Shown here: in pieces, positions 2,907 to 9,669 of the stretch
Layout: every line of letters begins with the position of its first letter
How positions within the stretch are numbered: the stretch's first letter is position 1
Origin: Candidatus Eiseniibacteriota bacterium
Lineage (GTDB): Bacteria > Eisenbacteria > RBG-16-71-46
Direction: 5' to 3'
Length of the DNA: 33,695 nt
Assembly: GCA_016223045.1 (NCBI GenBank)
Contig: JACRPT010000091.1
Location: forward strand, 1-33,695
Program-made: the position numbers and the translations under genes
Notes under the pieces: generated by a model
Told to the model about the DNA's origin: nothing
The model's input: the letters and a program-made list of their open reading frames with translations, nothing else
The model's database searches: none

Positions 2907-3045
2907 ACCGGCGGCGGCCGGTCAGCGCAAGCGGGCGACGGTGCGGCGCGTGACGGCGGCGCGTGGTGCGGGCGGGCGAGCGGGCGGCGCGGGCGGGCGG
3001 GCGCCCGCGCGGGCGGTGCGCGGCCCGCGTGACCGCGAGCGCGCG

Positions 3046-3077
3046 GAGCCCGGCATGCCCCATGGCATGCCGGGCTC
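3046..3077 (+). terminator. Hairpin terminator after the TonB receptor
   Basis: A perfect 14-bp inverted repeat (arms 3046-3059 and 3064-3077) with a CCAT loop is followed by GTTCGCTTTCC. It lies 140 bases after the receptor stop codon. The trailing T-run is short, so termination may be imperfect or may work in both directions. Confidence 0.7.
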
Positions 3078-3617
3078 GTTCGCTTTCCCCGACCGACAAG
3101 GCAGCGGAGGCGGGACACTTCGGCCGATCGGCCCCCGATTACGACCAACCTCTGCGAACCCGACCTGCCGCCCCTTGCCTGTCGTGGTCGAGGCCTTTCG
3201 ACCTCGCCGCCGTGCAACGCAAGCCGCGGACCATGCGCGCGCCCGCGGTCGCTCTTCGCGCCAATCCCTTGCGGGGCCCACGCGTCCGCGCGTAGTTCCG
3301 CCTGCGGTGTCGCACGCGGTGGCGGGCTCAGGTGTCCACCCCGTGCGCGTCGGTGTCGCCTGGCGGGCAGGGCAAGCGTTCTCTCCACGAGCAGGTGGCG
3401 CGGATGTCGCCGCGCGCGCCGCGGTGTCCCCCGCGTTGTCGGCGCGGTGCGCTCCCACGGGGCGCGCCCTGCCCGTGGCACGCCGGGGTCCGCCCTGGCA
3501 ATCGCGGACCGCGCCGATCGCGGGCGGGATCATCCATGTGTGCCCGCACCCGCGCCAATCGCGGCCACGCTCGTCCGCCACCGTCAGAACCCGCGCCTTT
3601 CCCGCCGATCTTGGCCC
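3078..3617. other. Gene-poor stretch upstream of lexA
   Basis: About 540 bases without a protein or RNA I can recognise. Open frames run through on both strands, as expected at this GC content, but their translations are Arg/Pro/Ala-rich and lack domain character. The RNase P RNA, tmRNA and SRP signatures I looked for by eye are not here. Base composition is slightly less extreme than in the coding regions. Confidence 0.45.
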
Positions 3618-3647
3618 TTGACGCGGTGCACGTCTGTGCACTAATGT
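3618..3647 (+). promoter_or_regulatory. lexA promoter with LexA operator in the spacer
   Basis: A sigma70-like promoter, TTGACG (3618-3623) and TAATGT (3642-3647), has an 18-bp spacer almost filled by the dyad GTGCAC-GTCT-GTGCAC (3626-3641). Its core, 3627-3640, fits TGCNC-N4-GTGCA, the LexA box reported for Fibrobacter succinogenes, and does not fit the E. coli, Bacillus or alphaproteobacterial boxes. LexA bound here would block RNA polymerase, giving autoregulation. Transcription would start near 3654, about 40 bases before the gene. Confidence 0.85.
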
Positions 3648-3694
3648 CTCGCCGTGGTCAATCGCCGCAGCCCCGGATTCACGAGGAGCGAGCC

Positions 3695-4294
3695 ATGCTG
3701 AATGACAGAGCGCGTGAGATTCTCGCCTTCATCCGCCGCTTCCAGAGCGAGCGCGGATTCCCTCCCACGATTCGCGAGATCGGTCGCGCCTCCGGGATCT
3801 CCTCCACGAACGGGGTGCGCTACTACCTCACGATGCTCGAGAAGGCCGGCCACCTGAAGCGACAGGGGAAGGTCTCCCGCGGCACCGGTCCCACCTCGAG
3901 GCCGCAGCCGAGCTGCATCCCGATCCTCGGGCGCGTCGCCGCGGGCCAGCCCATCCTCGCCGAGCAGTCGTTCGACGGCTCGCTCGAGATGAGCGAGGTG
4001 TTCGGCGATCCCGACGGGTTGTTCGCGCTGCGCGTGCGCGGCGACAGCATGGTCGAGGCCGGCGTCTTCCAGGGCGACTACGTCGTGGTGCGTCAGCGCG
4101 ACCAGGCATCCAGCGGGGACATGGTGGTGGCGCTGGTGGGAGACGAGGCCACGGTGAAGTACTACCGGCCGCACGCCGACCACATCGAGCTCATCCCCGC
4201 GAACGTGAACTACGCTCCCCTCCGGGTGGAACCAGGCACGGATTTCCGAATCCTCGGCGTCGTGACGGGCGTGCTGCGTACCGTCGGCCGCTGA
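3695..4294 (+). CDS. lexA: LexA, SOS repressor and self-cleaving peptidase
   Basis: A 199-residue protein of normal LexA length. Residues 1-65 form the winged-helix DNA-binding domain, with PPTIREIG and the recognition segment SSTNGVRYYLTMLEKAG. The Ala83-Gly84 bond in GRVAAGQP is the expected self-cleavage site. The catalytic dyad is Ser118 in RGDSM and Lys155 in TVKYY. RecA filaments on single-stranded DNA stimulate cleavage and release the SOS genes. ATG 3695 is chosen because it follows GAGGAGCG and gives the canonical N-terminus; upstream extension of the frame is an artefact of high GC. The recognition helix should match the Fibrobacter-type operator upstream. The following gene, a transposase-like protein, has a second candidate operator and may be in the same regulon. 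Confidence 0.96.
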   Translation: MLNDRAREILAFIRRFQSERGFPPTIREIGRASGISSTNGVRYYLTMLEKAGHLKRQGKVSRGTGPTSRPQPSCIPILGRVAAGQPILAEQSFDGSLEMSEVFGDPDGLFALRVRGDSMVEAGVFQGDYVVVRQRDQASSGDMVVALVGDEATVKYYRPHADHIELIPANVNYAPLRVEPGTDFRILGVVTGVLRTVGR

Positions 4295-4348
4295 CCCCCC
4301 CTCTACATCGAAAGGCAGGCAGCACGGACGCGAGAGCTTCCGAGTCGG

Positions 4349-4379
4349 TTCTCGAACCCCCCAATGGCACATATGTGCA
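4349..4379 (+). promoter_or_regulatory. Candidate SOS-controlled promoter of the transposase-like gene
   Basis: GGCAC-ATAT-GTGCA at 4366-4379 matches TGCNC-N4-GTGCA at all but the first base and contains the perfect palindrome GCACATATGTGC (4367-4378). It overlaps a weak -10 (TATGTG 4372-4377), placed 17 bp from TTCTCG (4349-4354). A second short dyad, GGTTC-TC-GAACC, lies at 4347-4358. The operator ends 23 bases before GTG 4403. Repression by LexA is inferred from the similarity to the lexA operator 740 bases upstream. Confidence 0.6.
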
Positions 4380-4402
4380 GTAAAGCGACAGGAGGTACCG
4401 CC

Positions 4403-4861
4403 GTGGAACGCAACCTGACCCCCGAAATCAACGAAGCGCTGCTGGGCCGGTGGGAACCCGTCTACCGCAGCCAGCTGCACTACCTGGTGACATGGAGTAC
4501 GCGCGGCCGCCGGCCGGTGCTGAAGGACCGGCACATCCGGGTGCTGCGCGAACTGATCCAGCAGGCGTGCGACGAACGCGGGTACACGCTGGTCGAGTCC
4601 TGCGCCGCGCCCGAGCACGTTCACGTCCTGGTGGGGCTGAGCCCCACGCAGAGCGTCGCGAGCGCGGTGCGAGAACTGAAGGGCCGCGCCGGCATGGCGC
4701 TGATGTCGCAGTTCCCCGAGCTGCGCGTGTGGCTGCGCGCGAACCTGGTGTGGGACGAACGCTACTCGGTGGAGACCGTGAGCGCGATGCGTCTCGACCG
4801 CGTGCGCGACCGCCTGCGCGTGCTCCACGGCCCGGAGGAGGATCTCGCCGCCGCGAGCTGA
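4403..4861 (+). CDS. IS200/IS605-type HUH (Y1) transposase-like protein
   Basis: A 152-residue protein with the Y1 transposase fold. An N-terminal strand LHYLVTWSTRGRRPVL is followed by the metal-binding HUH motif His72-Val-His74 in EHVHVLVG. The helix SVASAVRELKG comes next, then the catalytic tyrosine Tyr121 in WDERYSVETVS, the counterpart of the GYFVSTV segment of IS200 TnpA. These enzymes cut and rejoin single-stranded DNA through a 5' phosphotyrosine. GTG 4403 is preferred over ATG 4364: it follows AGGAGG (4390-4395) at good spacing, and the candidate LexA box would otherwise lie inside the gene. There is no tnpB, and I see no clear element ends beyond small dyads on each side. It may be a domesticated single-gene relative (RAYT-like) rather than an active insertion sequence. 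The possible SOS control is unusual. Confidence 0.85.
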   Translation: MERNLTPEINEALLGRWEPVYRSQLHYLVTWSTRGRRPVLKDRHIRVLRELIQQACDERGYTLVESCAAPEHVHVLVGLSPTQSVASAVRELKGRAGMALMSQFPELRVWLRANLVWDERYSVETVSAMRLDRVRDRLRVLHGPEEDLAAAS

Positions 4862-4890
4862 GCGCCGACCCCGGATCGTCGGCTCACGGT

Positions 4891-4909
4891 ATTTCGTGAG
4901 TCACGAAAT
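4891..4909. terminator. Perfect 19-bp dyad between convergent genes
   Basis: ATTTCGTGA and TCACGAAAT flank a single G. The dyad is AT-richer than its surroundings and sits between the stop codons of the transposase-like gene (+) and the exporter (-). It could be a weak bidirectional terminator, a protein-binding site, or a relic of the imperfect palindromes that Y1 transposases recognise at element ends. Confidence 0.45.
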
Positions 4910-4953
4910 GACGTGATTGGAATTGCGTGTCAGACCGTTGGCGGCCAAGTAGT

Positions 4954-5928
4954 TCAGACATGCTCGCGCGCCGGCGCCTGGCCCGGAGCCGACGCCAGCA
5001 CCGAGGCGGTGAGCACGAGGCCCGCGCCCAGCCACTGGAGCGGATGGAGGCCCTCGCCCAGGAAGATCGCCGCCGCGAACACCGCCATCACCGGCTCGAG
5101 CGTGGCGATGATGCCGGCCTGCGAGGGTGTGAGACGCCGCAGCCCGGCGTAGAACAGCGCGAAGGGGACGAGCGCGGAGCCGACCCCGATGGCCACCAGC
5201 AGCAGCCAGGTGTTGGCGTCGTAGCCCGCGGCCACGATGCGCCAGGGCGGGGTGACGATGGCCCAGAACGCCACGGCCACGAGAAAGCCGTAGAAGTGGA
5301 TGGTCTCGGGCGGGTAGCGGCGCAACGCGCGCTTCGAGAACAGGATGTAGAACGCGAACACCACCGCCGACCCGAAGCCGATCGCCCACTGCAGGGGTGT
5401 GGCGTGGAGCGCGACCGGATCCACGTCGCCCACCAGCAGCGCCGTGCCTGCCAGCGCTGCCGCGGCCGCCGCGAACGTGCTGCTCCCCACGCGGACCCCG
5501 CGCAGCAGGTCGTAGAGCACGAGCAGCGAGGGCGCCAGGTACTGGATCAGGATCGCCAGCCCGACGCCGAGCACCGAGATGCTGTAGTAGTACGCGCCCT
5601 GCATCGCCGCGACCCCGAACAGACCGAGGATGACGAAATAGCCCCAGTCCTCGCGCCGGATGGCGAGCGCGGGGCGCTTCCGCCATGCGAGCCACGGCCC
5701 CAGGATCGCGAGCGCCACCGCCAGGCGCAGCTCGACCACGGTGAGCGCCGGCACGTGCCGGTCGCGGAAGACGTAGCGCGCCAGCGTCGCCGAGGTGGCC
5801 CAGAAGAACGCCGCGCCGAACACCAGCCAGCGCCCCCGCGCGACCGAGCCGGGCCCGCTCGCGTGCGCGGAGGGGAGCCGCCCGACTTCAGAGGAGCCGG
5901 CGGCGGGCGAGGCGGCAGATTCGCTCAT
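4954..5928 (-). CDS. EamA-family (DMT superfamily) membrane exporter
   Basis: A 324-residue protein with about ten hydrophobic segments arranged as two EamA repeats, roughly residues 32-165 and 185-315. Family landmarks include WATSATLARY near the start of repeat one, ELRLAVALAI, and in repeat two the phrase TLEPVMAVFAAAIFLGE near the C-terminus. These carriers export metabolites such as amino acids or nucleoside derivatives; the substrate cannot be read from sequence. ATG 5928 is chosen over GTG 5937. The first 31 residues are polar and probably cytoplasmic. The start overlaps the 3' end of the protease gene by 41 bases, so the two are probably co-transcribed and coupled. Confidence 0.87.
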   Translation of the reverse strand: MSESAASPAAGSSEVGRLPSAHASGPGSVARGRWLVFGAAFFWATSATLARYVFRDRHVPALTVVELRLAVALAILGPWLAWRKRPALAIRREDWGYFVILGLFGVAAMQGAYYYSISVLGVGLAILIQYLAPSLLVLYDLLRGVRVGSSTFAAAAAALAGTALLVGDVDPVALHATPLQWAIGFGSAVVFAFYILFSKRALRRYPPETIHFYGFLVAVAFWAIVTPPWRIVAAGYDANTWLLLVAIGVGSALVPFALFYAGLRRLTPSQAGIIATLEPVMAVFAAAIFLGEGLHPLQWLGAGLVLTASVLASAPGQAPAREHV

Positions 5929-7354
5929 GGGATCCACGGCGGACGGTGAGGGTGACCCGGGAGCCCGGAGGGCCCTCGAGGCGGCGCGCCAGCGTCACCA
6001 GGTCGAACGCGGCGGCGGGCTCGCCGTCGATCGCGACCACCAGGTCGCCGGACGCGACGCCGGCGCGCGCGGCGGGCGAGCCCTCCGCGACCGCGACGAC
6101 GCACGCGGCGCCTGCGACCCGCTCGAGCTGCACACCGACGTGCGAGTACTCGTAGGGGCGCTCGTCGCTGCCCCCGCGGACGGGATCGAGCCACAGCATG
6201 TGGCCCGGGTAGTCGAGGGCCACGCGGTAGCCCTTCAGGAACGAGTAGCCGAGCAGGCCGTGCACCGGCTCGCCCACGGCCTGCGAGAGCATGGTCTCGA
6301 GCTCGCTGCGGATGACCGCGGCGTCCATCCCCAACACCCGCACCGGGCCGCCGCTCCCCTCGACCTGGAGCTCGGGCACGCGCACCATCCAGGCCGCGCT
6401 GGTCCCGATCAGCGTGGGCGCGGTGAGGCCGCGCAACGAGCGCCAGGAGCGCGCGCGCGGCACCCGCGTGGCAAGCGCGTTCTCGAAGAACACGCTCTTG
6501 GTGGCGCCCGTGTCCAGGATGAGCGTGAGCGCGCGGCCGAAGTGCGGCGGCCGCGGGTCGGAGGCTCGCGCCCGCACCAGCACCTTGCCATCGCCCGCGA
6601 GCCGAACGGGCACCGACACCGCGCGCGCGGAGAGGAACCCGGGGCGTGCCGGCCCCGGCCCCGCGGACCGGGCGCCGCCGGCACGGGCGCCGCCCTCACC
6701 GATGTCGCCGGCCCGGGCGCCTTCTGCAGGGACACCGCCCGCATCGGCGTCGTCGGTCGGCGCGCTGTCGGCGCCGGCACTGCCGGCGCGGGCACTGTCC
6801 GGGTCGGCCTCGCCGGCATGGGTGCGCGTGCTCCCGATCGCCGGGACCAGCGCGCCGATCCCCGCGCGGTAGTCGAGCCAGAGGACGCGGTCGGCGAGCA
6901 CGGACTTCCCGATCAGGCCGAGCACGGGACGGTCGGTGACGCGGCGAATCACCCCGGCGTCCACGGTGAGGACCGGGCTGACCTGGTCGAGCTGCATCCC
7001 GCCCAGGGTGAAGCGCGGGACCGGCCGCGCGGCGAGGCCGACGACGCCGGAGTCGGCCGCTCCGTCCACGAGCCCGAGCGCGCGGGCGAGGCCGTGGTCG
7101 AGCGCCAGGAACCCGGCGCCGGTGTCGAGCACGAACAGCCCGGTGGTGTCGCGCCCGTTCGCCCCGCGCAGCGATGCCGTCACGAGGATCGCCCCCTCCA
7201 GGTTCTCGAAATGGAGGATCTCCGTGCCGGCAGGCCAGCTACGGACGATAGCAGCGGCGCTGTCGGGGCCTGCCCGTGCTCCGCGCGGAGCGGCGGCGGC
7301 CGCCGCTGCGACCAGCAGCAGTGCGAGCGCGCTGGCAGCGGCGATCGGTCTCAT
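5888..7354 (-). CDS. Secreted protein with two retropepsin-like aspartyl protease domains and a PDZ domain
   Basis: The 488-residue product starts with a signal peptide (MRPIAAASALALLL, then an Ala run). Two pepsin-like half-domains follow, each with a catalytic triad: DTGAGF near residue 77 and DTGATK near residue 260. A low-complexity linker of Ala/Gly/Asp/Arg lies between them, with imperfect 15-bp repeats in the DNA. Residues 390-488 form a PDZ domain (GVQLERV, SPAARAGVASGDLVVAIDG). Bacterial proteins of this type are periplasmic or lipid-anchored proteases, often with PDZ substrate selection. ATG 7354 is preferred because it starts the signal peptide; GTG 7444, directly after the bactofilin stop, would add 30 Arg/Ala-rich residues. 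The two half-domains may form a pseudo-dimeric active site. The substrate is unknown. Confidence 0.8.
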   Translation of the reverse strand: MRPIAAASALALLLVAAAAAAAPRGARAGPDSAAAIVRSWPAGTEILHFENLEGAILVTASLRGANGRDTTGLFVLDTGAGFLALDHGLARALGLVDGAADSGVVGLAARPVPRFTLGGMQLDQVSPVLTVDAGVIRRVTDRPVLGLIGKSVLADRVLWLDYRAGIGALVPAIGSTRTHAGEADPDSARAGSAGADSAPTDDADAGGVPAEGARAGDIGEGGARAGGARSAGPGPARPGFLSARAVSVPVRLAGDGKVLVRARASDPRPPHFGRALTLILDTGATKSVFFENALATRVPRARSWRSLRGLTAPTLIGTSAAWMVRVPELQVEGSGGPVRVLGMDAAVIRSELETMLSQAVGEPVHGLLGYSFLKGYRVALDYPGHMLWLDPVRGGSDERPYEYSHVGVQLERVAGAACVVAVAEGSPAARAGVASGDLVVAIDGEPAAAFDLVTLARRLEGPPGSRVTLTVRRGSHERICRLARRRLL

Positions 7355-7444: not shown

Positions 7445-7852
7445 TCAGCTCCGCGCGCGCACGTGGTCCGCGCCCAGATCCACGCTCTCCGAGCCGTTCT
7501 CGAGCATGGTGCAGCGGCCGGTGAAGTGCACGCCGGGCTCCATCACCACGGTCATCGCGGCGACGTCGCCCTCGACCCGGGCGCCGTTCTTCATCTCCAG
7601 CGACCCGAGCGCGCGGATGTCCCCGAACACGCGACCGCGGACCACGGCCTCCTTGACCTCGATGTCGGCCCGCATGATCCCGTGCTCGCCGATCTCGAGC
7701 CGGTCGCAGTTGAGGATGTCGCCTTCGAACTCGCCGTCGATGCGCAGCGTGCCGTGCACCATCAGCGTGCCGCGCAGGCTCGTGCCCACCCCCAGGATGG
7801 TGTTGGGCTGGGCCGCCCCATCGCTCTCGGAGGCCTTCGACCTGAAGATCAT
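7445..7852 (-). CDS. Bactofilin, polymer-forming cytoskeletal protein
   Basis: A 135-residue protein with the bactofilin beta-helix signature. The core from about 18 to 115 is a ladder of short strands (GTLMVHGTLRIDGEFEG, then RLEIGEHG, then VVRGRVFGDI, then LEMKNGARVEGD). Short polar tails flank it, as usual. Bactofilins polymerise without nucleotide at the membrane and position cell-wall enzymes or chromosome-segregation proteins; in Myxococcus, bactofilins are linked to ParABS. Its place right after parAB fits such a role, but this is inference. GGGAGCGGGACC before ATG 7852 is a good ribosome site. The 135 bases upstream hold an AT-richer patch (7920-7970) likely to contain its promoter. 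Confidence 0.92.
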   Translation of the reverse strand: MIFRSKASESDGAAQPNTILGVGTSLRGTLMVHGTLRIDGEFEGDILNCDRLEIGEHGIMRADIEVKEAVVRGRVFGDIRALGSLEMKNGARVEGDVAAMTVVMEPGVHFTGRCTMLENGSESVDLGADHVRARS

Positions 7853-7987
7853 GGTCCCGCTCCCTGGTTTCCGACCGGTGCCGCCGGCCGGGTCGGCCTT
7901 CCGTCGTCGTCCGCCGACTGCGAAATCATGTAATCAGCTTGTGCGCAACAGACTAATGCCAATGTAGTGCACGACCGCCAGCCCGAC

Positions 7988-8842
7988 TCACAGCACGCCC
8001 CATGCCTCCAGCAGGCGCTCCAGATCCTCCTGGCTGTAGTACTCGAACTCGACCCTGCCGCCTTTGCGGCCGGGCGTGATGGTGACGTGCGTGCCGAACC
8101 TCTGCTGGAGCTTGGTCTCCCACTCCCCGAGGCCCTCGAGCTTCGCCGATCGGGGGCGCGAGTGCTGGCGCCGCAGCTTGCGGCGCACGAATGCCTCGGT
8201 GCGACGTACCGAGAACCCCTTGCTCTGGACGTAGCGGGCGGCCGCGAGTTGATCGCCCGGGTTGGGCAGCGCGAGCAGCGCGCGCGCATGGCCGGCGCTC
8301 AATGTTCCACGTGAAACCATGTCCTGGACCTCGGGGGGGAGCGCCAGCAGCCTGAGCGCGTTGGTGATCGAGACGCGCTGCTTGCCGACCCGCTCCGAGA
8401 CCTTGTCGTGGGTGAGCGAGAGCCTCTCCACCAGCGCCTGGTATGCCTTCGCCTCCTCGATCGGATTGAGGTTCTCGCGCTGGACGTTCTCGATCAGCGC
8501 CAGCTCCATCATCTCGCGATCGGGGACCTCCTTGATCACGGCCGGGATGCGCTTGAGGCCGGCCAGCACGGCGGCGCGCAGCCGCCTTTCCCCGGCCACC
8601 AGCTGATAGCCGTCGGCGCCGTCATGCCGCACCAGCACCGGCTGCAGCACGCCGGTCGCCTTGATCGAGGCAGCCAGCTCCTTGATCGCGCCGTCGTCGA
8701 ACCGGGTGCGCGGCTGGTAGGGGTTCGAGCCGATCTCCTCCACGGGCAGCTCGCGCAGTCCGTCCTGGAGTTCCTCCAGCGTGGTCGTGGCTGCGGCGGG
8801 GATGAGGGCCTCGAGCCCGCGCCCCAGGGCTTTCCTATGCAT
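7988..8842 (-). CDS. parB: ParB, chromosome-partitioning CTPase and parS-binding protein
   Basis: A 284-residue protein of standard ParB length. The N-terminus RKALGRGLEALIP includes the ParA-stimulating Arg motif. Next comes the ParB/Srx-type CTP-binding domain with NPYQPR (residues 40-45), GERRLRAA and ENVQREN. The central helix-turn-helix (about 150-205) is followed by a C-terminal dimerisation segment ending at 284. ParB loads at parS, closes into a CTP-dependent clamp and slides to build the partition complex. The start overlaps the parA end by 8 bases, so translation is coupled. A parS site lies inside the gene (8303-8318), as in many chromosomes. Confidence 0.97.
   Translation of the reverse strand: MHRKALGRGLEALIPAAATTTLEELQDGLRELPVEEIGSNPYQPRTRFDDGAIKELAASIKATGVLQPVLVRHDGADGYQLVAGERRLRAAVLAGLKRIPAVIKEVPDREMMELALIENVQRENLNPIEEAKAYQALVERLSLTHDKVSERVGKQRVSITNALRLLALPPEVQDMVSRGTLSAGHARALLALPNPGDQLAAARYVQSKGFSVRRTEAFVRRKLRRQHSRPRSAKLEGLGEWETKLQQRFGTHVTITPGRKGGRVEFEYYSQEDLERLLEAWGVL
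8303..8318. other. parS site inside parB
   Basis: The 16-mer TGTTCCACGTGAAACC matches the parS consensus TGTTTCACGTGAAACA at 14 of 16 positions and keeps the CACGTG core. It sits in the middle of parB, where it encodes part of the helix-turn-helix region. Confidence 0.93.
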
Positions 8843-9596
8843 GGTCCAGGACCTCCAGCGCCAGTTCTCGATAGCTCTCGGCGCCTGTGCAGTGTGGGTC
8901 GTAGAGGACGATGGGCTTGCCGAAGGACGGGGCCTCGCTGAGCCTCACGTTGCGTGGGATCACCGTGCGGTAGACGCGCTCCGCGAAGAACTTCCGCGCT
9001 TCCTCGGCGACCTGCTGCGAGAGGTTCAGGCGCGCGTCGTACATGGTGAGGAGCACGCCCTCGATGCGCAGGGCCGGGTTCAGGTGGTCCTGGACGAGCC
9101 GGATGGCCGCGATCAGCTGGGTCAGACCCTCGAGCGCCAGGTACTCGCATTGCAGCGGGATGAGCACCGAGTCCGAGGCGGTGAGCGCGTTCACCGTCAG
9201 CAACCCCAGCGAGGGCGGGCTGTCGATGAGGACGAAGTCGTAGTCGTCGCGCACCTTTCCGACGGCGTTCCGCAGGCGGGTCTCGCGCGCCATCAGCCCG
9301 ACGAGTTCGACCTCGGCGCCCGAGAGCCGCTGCCCCGCCGGCACCAGGTCGAGATTCGCGAGCATGGTCGGCAGGATGGCCTGCCCGAGCTCGGAATGCC
9401 CGAGCAGCACCTCGTAGATGCTGTGCGCCTGGTCATTGCCGTTGACGCCGAGGCCGCTGGAGGCGTTCCCCTGCGGGTCTATGTCAATGACGAGGACGCG
9501 ACGGCTCTCCTGCGCCAGGCAAGCACCGAGGTTGATCGCGGTGGTGGTCTTGCCGACGCCGCCCTTCTGGCTGGCTACCGAGATGATTCGTCCCAT
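8835..9596 (-). CDS. parA: ParA/Soj, chromosome-partitioning ATPase
   Basis: A 253-residue Walker-type ATPase. The deviant Walker A motif QKGGVGKTTT lies at residues 9-18, with the signature lysine at 11. DIDPQGNASSG follows, and Walker B is FVLIDSPPSLG. ParA dimers bind DNA nonspecifically and are released by ParB, moving origins apart. ATG 9596 gives the typical short start MGRIISVASQ; GTG 9629 would add eleven residues not usual for the family. AAGGGA abuts this ATG, closer than a standard ribosome site, so the start is not fully settled. A promoter (9670-9699) and a parS site lie just upstream, and parB overlaps the 3' end. Confidence 0.96.
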   Translation of the reverse strand: MGRIISVASQKGGVGKTTTAINLGACLAQESRRVLVIDIDPQGNASSGLGVNGNDQAHSIYEVLLGHSELGQAILPTMLANLDLVPAGQRLSGAEVELVGLMARETRLRNAVGKVRDDYDFVLIDSPPSLGLLTVNALTASDSVLIPLQCEYLALEGLTQLIAAIRLVQDHLNPALRIEGVLLTMYDARLNLSQQVAEEARKFFAERVYRTVIPRNVRLSEAPSFGKPIVLYDPHCTGAESYRELALEVLDHA

Positions 9597-9669
9597 TCCC
9601 TTGAGCGCGGGGGCGGACTTCCTGCCCACCTTGATGCGGGGGTTGCTTCAGGCGACCTGCGTGGGCAGC

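Follow-up and report, generated by a model that had tools for sequence, protein, structure and literature searches.

The lexA locus and the Y1-like gene

The 33,695-nucleotide stretch of DNA analysed here (the window) comes from a Candidatus Eisenbacteria genome, as related records bear the same name, and the hosts of this family are uncultured soil and groundwater bacteria. The window carries lexA followed on the same strand by a gene derived from Y1/IS200-type TnpA transposases, called the Y1-like gene below, and each of the two has a LexA-type operator (Table 1). The start of the Y1-like gene is the GTG at 4403, which lies seven bases past AGGAGG and is homologous to the orthologue starts, and the ATG at 4364 further upstream is unneeded as a start. 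With the start at this GTG, the operator of the Y1-like gene, which contains the 12-bp perfect palindrome core GCACATATGTGC, falls in the promoter or leader and outside the open reading frame. The original prediction had placed this operator over a weak -10; a promoter scan found no sigma-70-like -10/-35 pair, a terminator scan likewise returned nothing, and Rfam gave no match over positions 3000 to 6000. The palindrome 3' of the stop codon is probably a terminator. A few kilobases from lexA, ParA-like, ParB-like and bactofilin-like genes occupy positions 7445-9629 of the window on the minus strand.

Table 1. Features of the lexA locus in window coordinates
Feature	Position	Strand	Remarks
lexA operator TGCACGTCTGTGCA	3627..3640		perfect TGCAC-N4-GTGCA; same position in orthologous loci
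lexA, 199 aa, LexA_DNA_bind and Peptidase_S24	3695..4294	+	homologous and next to the Y1-like gene in all 19 same-family genomes that yielded lexA
Weak hairpin without T run	4331..4354	+	at the position of the relatives' conserved hairpin
LexA-type operator GGCACATATGTGCA of the Y1-like gene	4366..4379		conserved in 18/18 intact orthologues
Ribosome-binding site AGGAGG	4390..4395	+	AGGAGG invariant in aligned leaders
Y1/IS200-type TnpA-derived gene, putative SOS protein, 152 aa	4403..4861	+	HUH histidines H72 and H74 kept; R137 in place of the catalytic Tyr; H142 invariant
Perfect palindrome TTTCGTGAGTCACGAAA 3' of the stop	4892..4908		sole perfect copy in the genome; sequence not common to relatives' downstream regions

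Synteny, copy number and selection

The Y1-like gene is single-copy in its own genome and no tnpB adjoins it. It was found in 19 of the 20 genomes of the same family, never in multiple copies and always directly downstream of lexA; the remaining genome, G007 (80% complete), has neither a Y1-like gene nor a lexA match. Eighteen of the 19 copies are intact and one, in G006, is decayed. The original prediction had described a lone IS200-like gene without tnpB, kept beside lexA, and had proposed to count its copies; the PF01797 match, the single gene per genome and the fixed, syntenic locus bear this description out. Beyond the order, a profile search of 26 further genomes from the phylum or class detected no orthologues, the other Y1 genes in those genomes being rare and unrelated, and viral contigs contained no relatives. 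On our reading, the gene became fixed in one order of Candidatus Eisenbacteria.

Mean pairwise identity is 0.648 for the Y1-like protein and 0.646 for LexA, the pairwise distances of the two proteins correlate (r = 0.77), and the three closest pairs give the Y1-like gene a dN/dS of 0.085-0.099. These values indicate a gene that evolves no faster than LexA, in the manner of a host gene under purifying selection. Pfam and NCBIfam both name the product an IS200-type transposase, as they would for an ordinary IS200-like element inserted next to lexA by chance, but fixation in 19 genomes without a single multi-copy case, purifying selection, a conserved operator and loss of the catalytic tyrosine are all against such an insertion. 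Its probability is negligible, and we regard the evidence of synteny and conservation as having already refuted it. The proposal that the gene is domesticated is, on the other hand, strongly supported by the comparison of relatives that the original prediction had suggested, with its fixed lexA linkage, single copy and conserved operator, and by the purifying selection.

Conservation of the operator and the neighboring hairpins

The near-perfect operator of the original prediction was recovered at exactly the same position, one mismatch from the lexA-operator pattern TGCAC-N4-GTGCA. The chance of a site with at most one mismatch in a given 60-bp stretch is about 0.1%; genome-wide, the own genome has 73 such sites versus 58 for the reversed control, an enrichment that is not clear, so that one such site taken alone is weak evidence. 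We consider the operator real because it is conserved in all of the intact orthologues, where matches of at least 9/10 lie 19-26 nt 5' of the start, most commonly in the form TGCACATNNGTTCA. The only disrupted copy, that of G006 (L034 / L040), has suffered a deletion or frameshift after FPELR, and the operator is absent there too; barring an assembly error, gene and operator have decayed together. The apparent LexA control that had been proposed for the gene is therefore strongly supported by the conservation of its predicted operator.

Ahead of the operator, 51-61 nt 5' of the start, 14 of the 18 intact loci carry, by a strict test, a hairpin that has a perfect stem and a T run. Its stem is mostly CGGGAGC...GCTCCCG, with similar structures in other loci; the window copy and L017 have no recognisable T-run hairpin, and L026/L027 have a different stem. 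This conserved hairpin probably serves lexA as a rho-independent terminator, and the Y1-like gene would then be transcribed as a unit of its own. The fixed distance of the hairpin, and the occurrence of its strict form once each in 4 of 8 genomes tested and only at the lexA/Y1 locus, would also suit a regulator that recognises the stem-loop lying between lexA and the operator of the Y1-like gene, in either its DNA or its RNA form, and thereby influences the termination of lexA or its own expression. However, a lexA terminator explains the hairpin equally well, and some loci have a missing or altered stem; we consider a hairpin-binding regulator quite improbable.

Two local palindromes were tested as REP palindromes, and neither is repeated genome-wide: the upstream hairpin was rejected as a REP-like element, having at most one copy per genome, and the downstream palindrome was rejected as a repeated element, having only its one perfect copy. 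Subterminal-hairpin ends of an insertion sequence were examined as well. The upstream hairpin is conserved but better read as the lexA terminator, and the downstream stem-loops, unrelated in sequence between genomes and often no better than shuffles, were rejected as conserved ends.

A small predicted SOS regulon

The strict pattern TGCACAYNYGTKCA occurs at 1-5 sites per genome in the 20 family genomes, and its reversed control gives almost none. Among 28 fetched operator loci, some of which overlap the same place, 26 have lexA, the Y1-like gene or dinB, the last mostly accompanied by DUF6504, at the operator. This operator set has the look of a genuine but very small SOS regulon, predicted to consist of lexA, the Y1-like gene and DUF6504-dinB operons. 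The own genome has two separate DUF6504-dinB operons (L004:1501, C86; L006:1501, C159), each behind a LexA-type operator, and its two DinB paralogues are thus under predicted SOS control.

The protein keeps the TnpA fold and the HUH pair with an altered active site

The protein matches PF01797 (Y1_Tnp) with 77.6 bits against a cut-off of 23 (E = 1.1e-21) and NCBIfam NF033573 (IS200/IS605 TnpA) with 76.8 bits against a cut-off of 55, and it scores 42.8 bits with the RAYT profile NF047646, below the cut-off of 80. In the profile comparison with the PDB, transposases of Deinococcus radiodurans rank first (2fyx, E = 9.6e-18; ISDra2, 2xm3, E = 2e-17), and IS608 comes next. An AlphaFold2 model of moderate confidence (mean pLDDT 76.5) matches hairpin-bound ISDra2 and IS608 TnpA in Foldseek with E of about 1e-10, and the protein has no extra domains.

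The residues invariant in the 18 intact copies include the HUH pair H72-x-H74, H142, Y27, Y121, K93, R34, R36 and E119. The HUH pair was thus correctly read in the original prediction, but the catalytic tyrosine, which it took to be kept as well, is gone. Alignment to ISDra2 TnpA pairs TVSENTRAQIQKYIESQH with TVSPLRLEKVRERLRALH and sets the nucleophile Y132 against R137, and in the alignment with ISDra2 and IS608 TnpA this position is Arg in 17 intact copies and Lys in 1. The Gln metal ligand, which in IS608 lies four residues past the Tyr and has been described as essential for transposition (PMC6006769), is also lost in all 18, where its position holds L, T, R, S, F, V or A; the invariant H142 is next to it. 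The loss of both Tyr and Gln is as expected for a protein that lost transposition and retained a function. The protein is not decaying, and its repurposed site is under selection.

Y121, within ERYxVETVS, is probably the tyrosine that was earlier taken as catalytic. Since Y27 and Y121 are both invariant, either could be imagined as the substitute nucleophile of a still active Y1 transposase. We consider this very improbable, because they align with tyrosines of ISDra2 TnpA other than the nucleophile, Y121 with a non-catalytic one, and because a single copy in each genome, always at the same place, gives no sign of mobility.

The sister family and the origin of the gene

In G020, the sole sister-family genome compared, lexA is followed in turn by a glyoxalase-like gene, a perfect TGCACATATGTGCA operator, the Y1-like gene, DUF6504 and dinB. 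The Y1-like protein of G020 has 118 residues, carries HVN instead of HUH and ends before the Tyr helix; that such a reduced copy still has a perfect operator ahead of it and DUF6504-dinB right after it is a point in favor of exaptation. Elsewhere in the class, reading of the DNA places a DUF6504-dinB-like or dinB-like sequence directly after lexA in several genomes. The simplest history we infer is that an IS200-type tnpA was captured within an ancestral lexA-DUF6504-dinB cluster, would then have gained its own operator and subsequently lost the catalytic Tyr, and that the dinB operons finally separated from lexA in the family of the window.

Proposed function of the Y1-like protein

With a probability of about 0.6, we propose that the Y1-like gene is an exapted IS200/IS605 TnpA, LexA-repressed and fixed in a small SOS regulon, whose product is dead for strand transfer and binds single-stranded DNA or hairpins. 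The sequences show the homology, the single copy, the synteny, the conserved operator, the purifying selection, the disappearance of Tyr and Gln and the small size of the regulon, and we infer LexA binding and induction, DNA binding, the absence of cleavage and a role at damaged DNA. LexA would repress the gene through the operator at 4366-4379; upon DNA damage, RecA-stimulated cleavage of LexA would free this operator, and the protein would be produced alongside LexA and Pol IV. It would be incapable of the tyrosine cut-and-rejoin chemistry of transposases, most likely retaining the hairpin and single-strand binding surface of TnpA, and could act without cutting on single strands or hairpins at damaged forks and gaps, at the step where DinB bypasses lesions. 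More tentatively, with the odds somewhat against this particular role, such a non-cutting protein, encoded between the genes of the SOS repressor and of translesion polymerases in this order, may be an SOS effector of a new kind that remodels or protects structured single strands while Pol IV carries out bypass, or that feeds back on lexA via the hairpin.

The invariance of the HUH histidines and H142 speaks against a purely non-cutting protein and suggests that a metal site is still selected, possibly for some chemistry. The original prediction had suggested a single-strand nuclease, a view at odds with the replacement of the nucleophilic Tyr and the Gln ligand in every intact copy and with the G020 copy, in which the second His is lost and the Tyr helix is missing altogether. 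A hydrolytic variant can nevertheless be formulated, in which H72, H74 and H142 hold a metal and the part of the Tyr is taken by water or by a host factor; SOS induction would then yield a structure-specific ssDNA nuclease for trimming hairpins or flaps. It agrees with the invariance of these histidines, the acidic E119 and the basic K93, R34 and R36, and with the position of H142 five residues past the Tyr site, which is the Gln spacing of class 3 TnpA (Y----Q; PMC6006769). However, Tyr-to-Phe mutation abolishes cleavage by TnpAREP (PMC8266576), the family-wide Arg looks like abandoned chemistry, and the G020 version kept its perfect operator while lacking the second His and the tail. We therefore judge the hydrolytic nuclease unlikely, and the strand-transfer-dead binder remains the preferred reading.

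Comparison with known systems

The protein resembles IS200/IS605 TnpA (ISDra2, IS608; PF01797, NF033573) in fold, sequence, HUH pair and lack of extra domains, and it differs in the change of Tyr to Arg or Lys, the lost Gln, immobility at a single fixed locus, the missing tnpB and the LexA-type operator. With RAYT/TnpAREP (NF047646) it shares the IS200-superfamily origin, single copy and housekeeping-like vertical inheritance (PMC8266576). TnpAREP, however, is described as a domesticated Y1 transposase that is catalytically active, with Tyr-to-Phe mutants devoid of cleavage (PMC8266576), whereas the protein studied here falls under the RAYT cut-off, has no Y---NP signature, has no REP array in view at its locus and is under predicted SOS control. 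DNA damage has been linked to transposases before: a passage of PMC8533742 cites LexA repression of the Tn5 transposase in E. coli, and in Deinococcus irradiation stimulates ISDra2 transposition, though not through induction of TnpA (PMC2806898). Unlike these active mobile elements, the Y1-like gene does not move, belongs to the host and has a conserved operator.

In the literature searched, which included few subscription papers, we found no report of a LexA-controlled, lexA-linked, Tyr-less Y1 protein, and nothing on LexA or SOS in Eisenbacteria or on LexA control of a Y1 transposase. A 2018 survey of the superfamily set aside proteins without HuH or Y motifs as probably non-functional (PMC6006769); the lexA-linked Tyr-less family argues that some motif-lacking Y1 proteins may well be functional. 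The protein is probably a new single-strand-handling part of the bacterial SOS response. If this is true, it would be a new protein type in that response, a naturally occurring protein of the simplest HUH fold in which DNA binding is uncoupled from strand transfer, and a case of a mobile-element enzyme captured by a repair regulon, within a clean, small regulon (lexA, the Y1-like gene and dinB) of a phylum for which the literature searched held no SOS work.

Other candidate members of the regulon

One of the two fetched loci without lexA, the Y1-like gene or dinB is in G018, where the operator (L140:1501) precedes a radical-SAM gene (CAHRCTFCYVREF) that, by reading, resembles spore photoproduct lyase; it may be one more SOS gene. 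In 3 of 4 genomes (L164:1331, L165:1342, L166:1333), a weak operator-like site (TGCACAAGTGTGTA or TGCCCAAATGTGTA) precedes the RecA domain match by about 170 nt, and recA may be a weakly controlled member of the regulon. The RecA of the own genome (G000:C69:5492-6814, L166) contains an in-frame, intein-like insertion of about 174 residues, from CFHYDT to VVHN before SPET, and the RecA of G008 is split as well, by about 350 residues.
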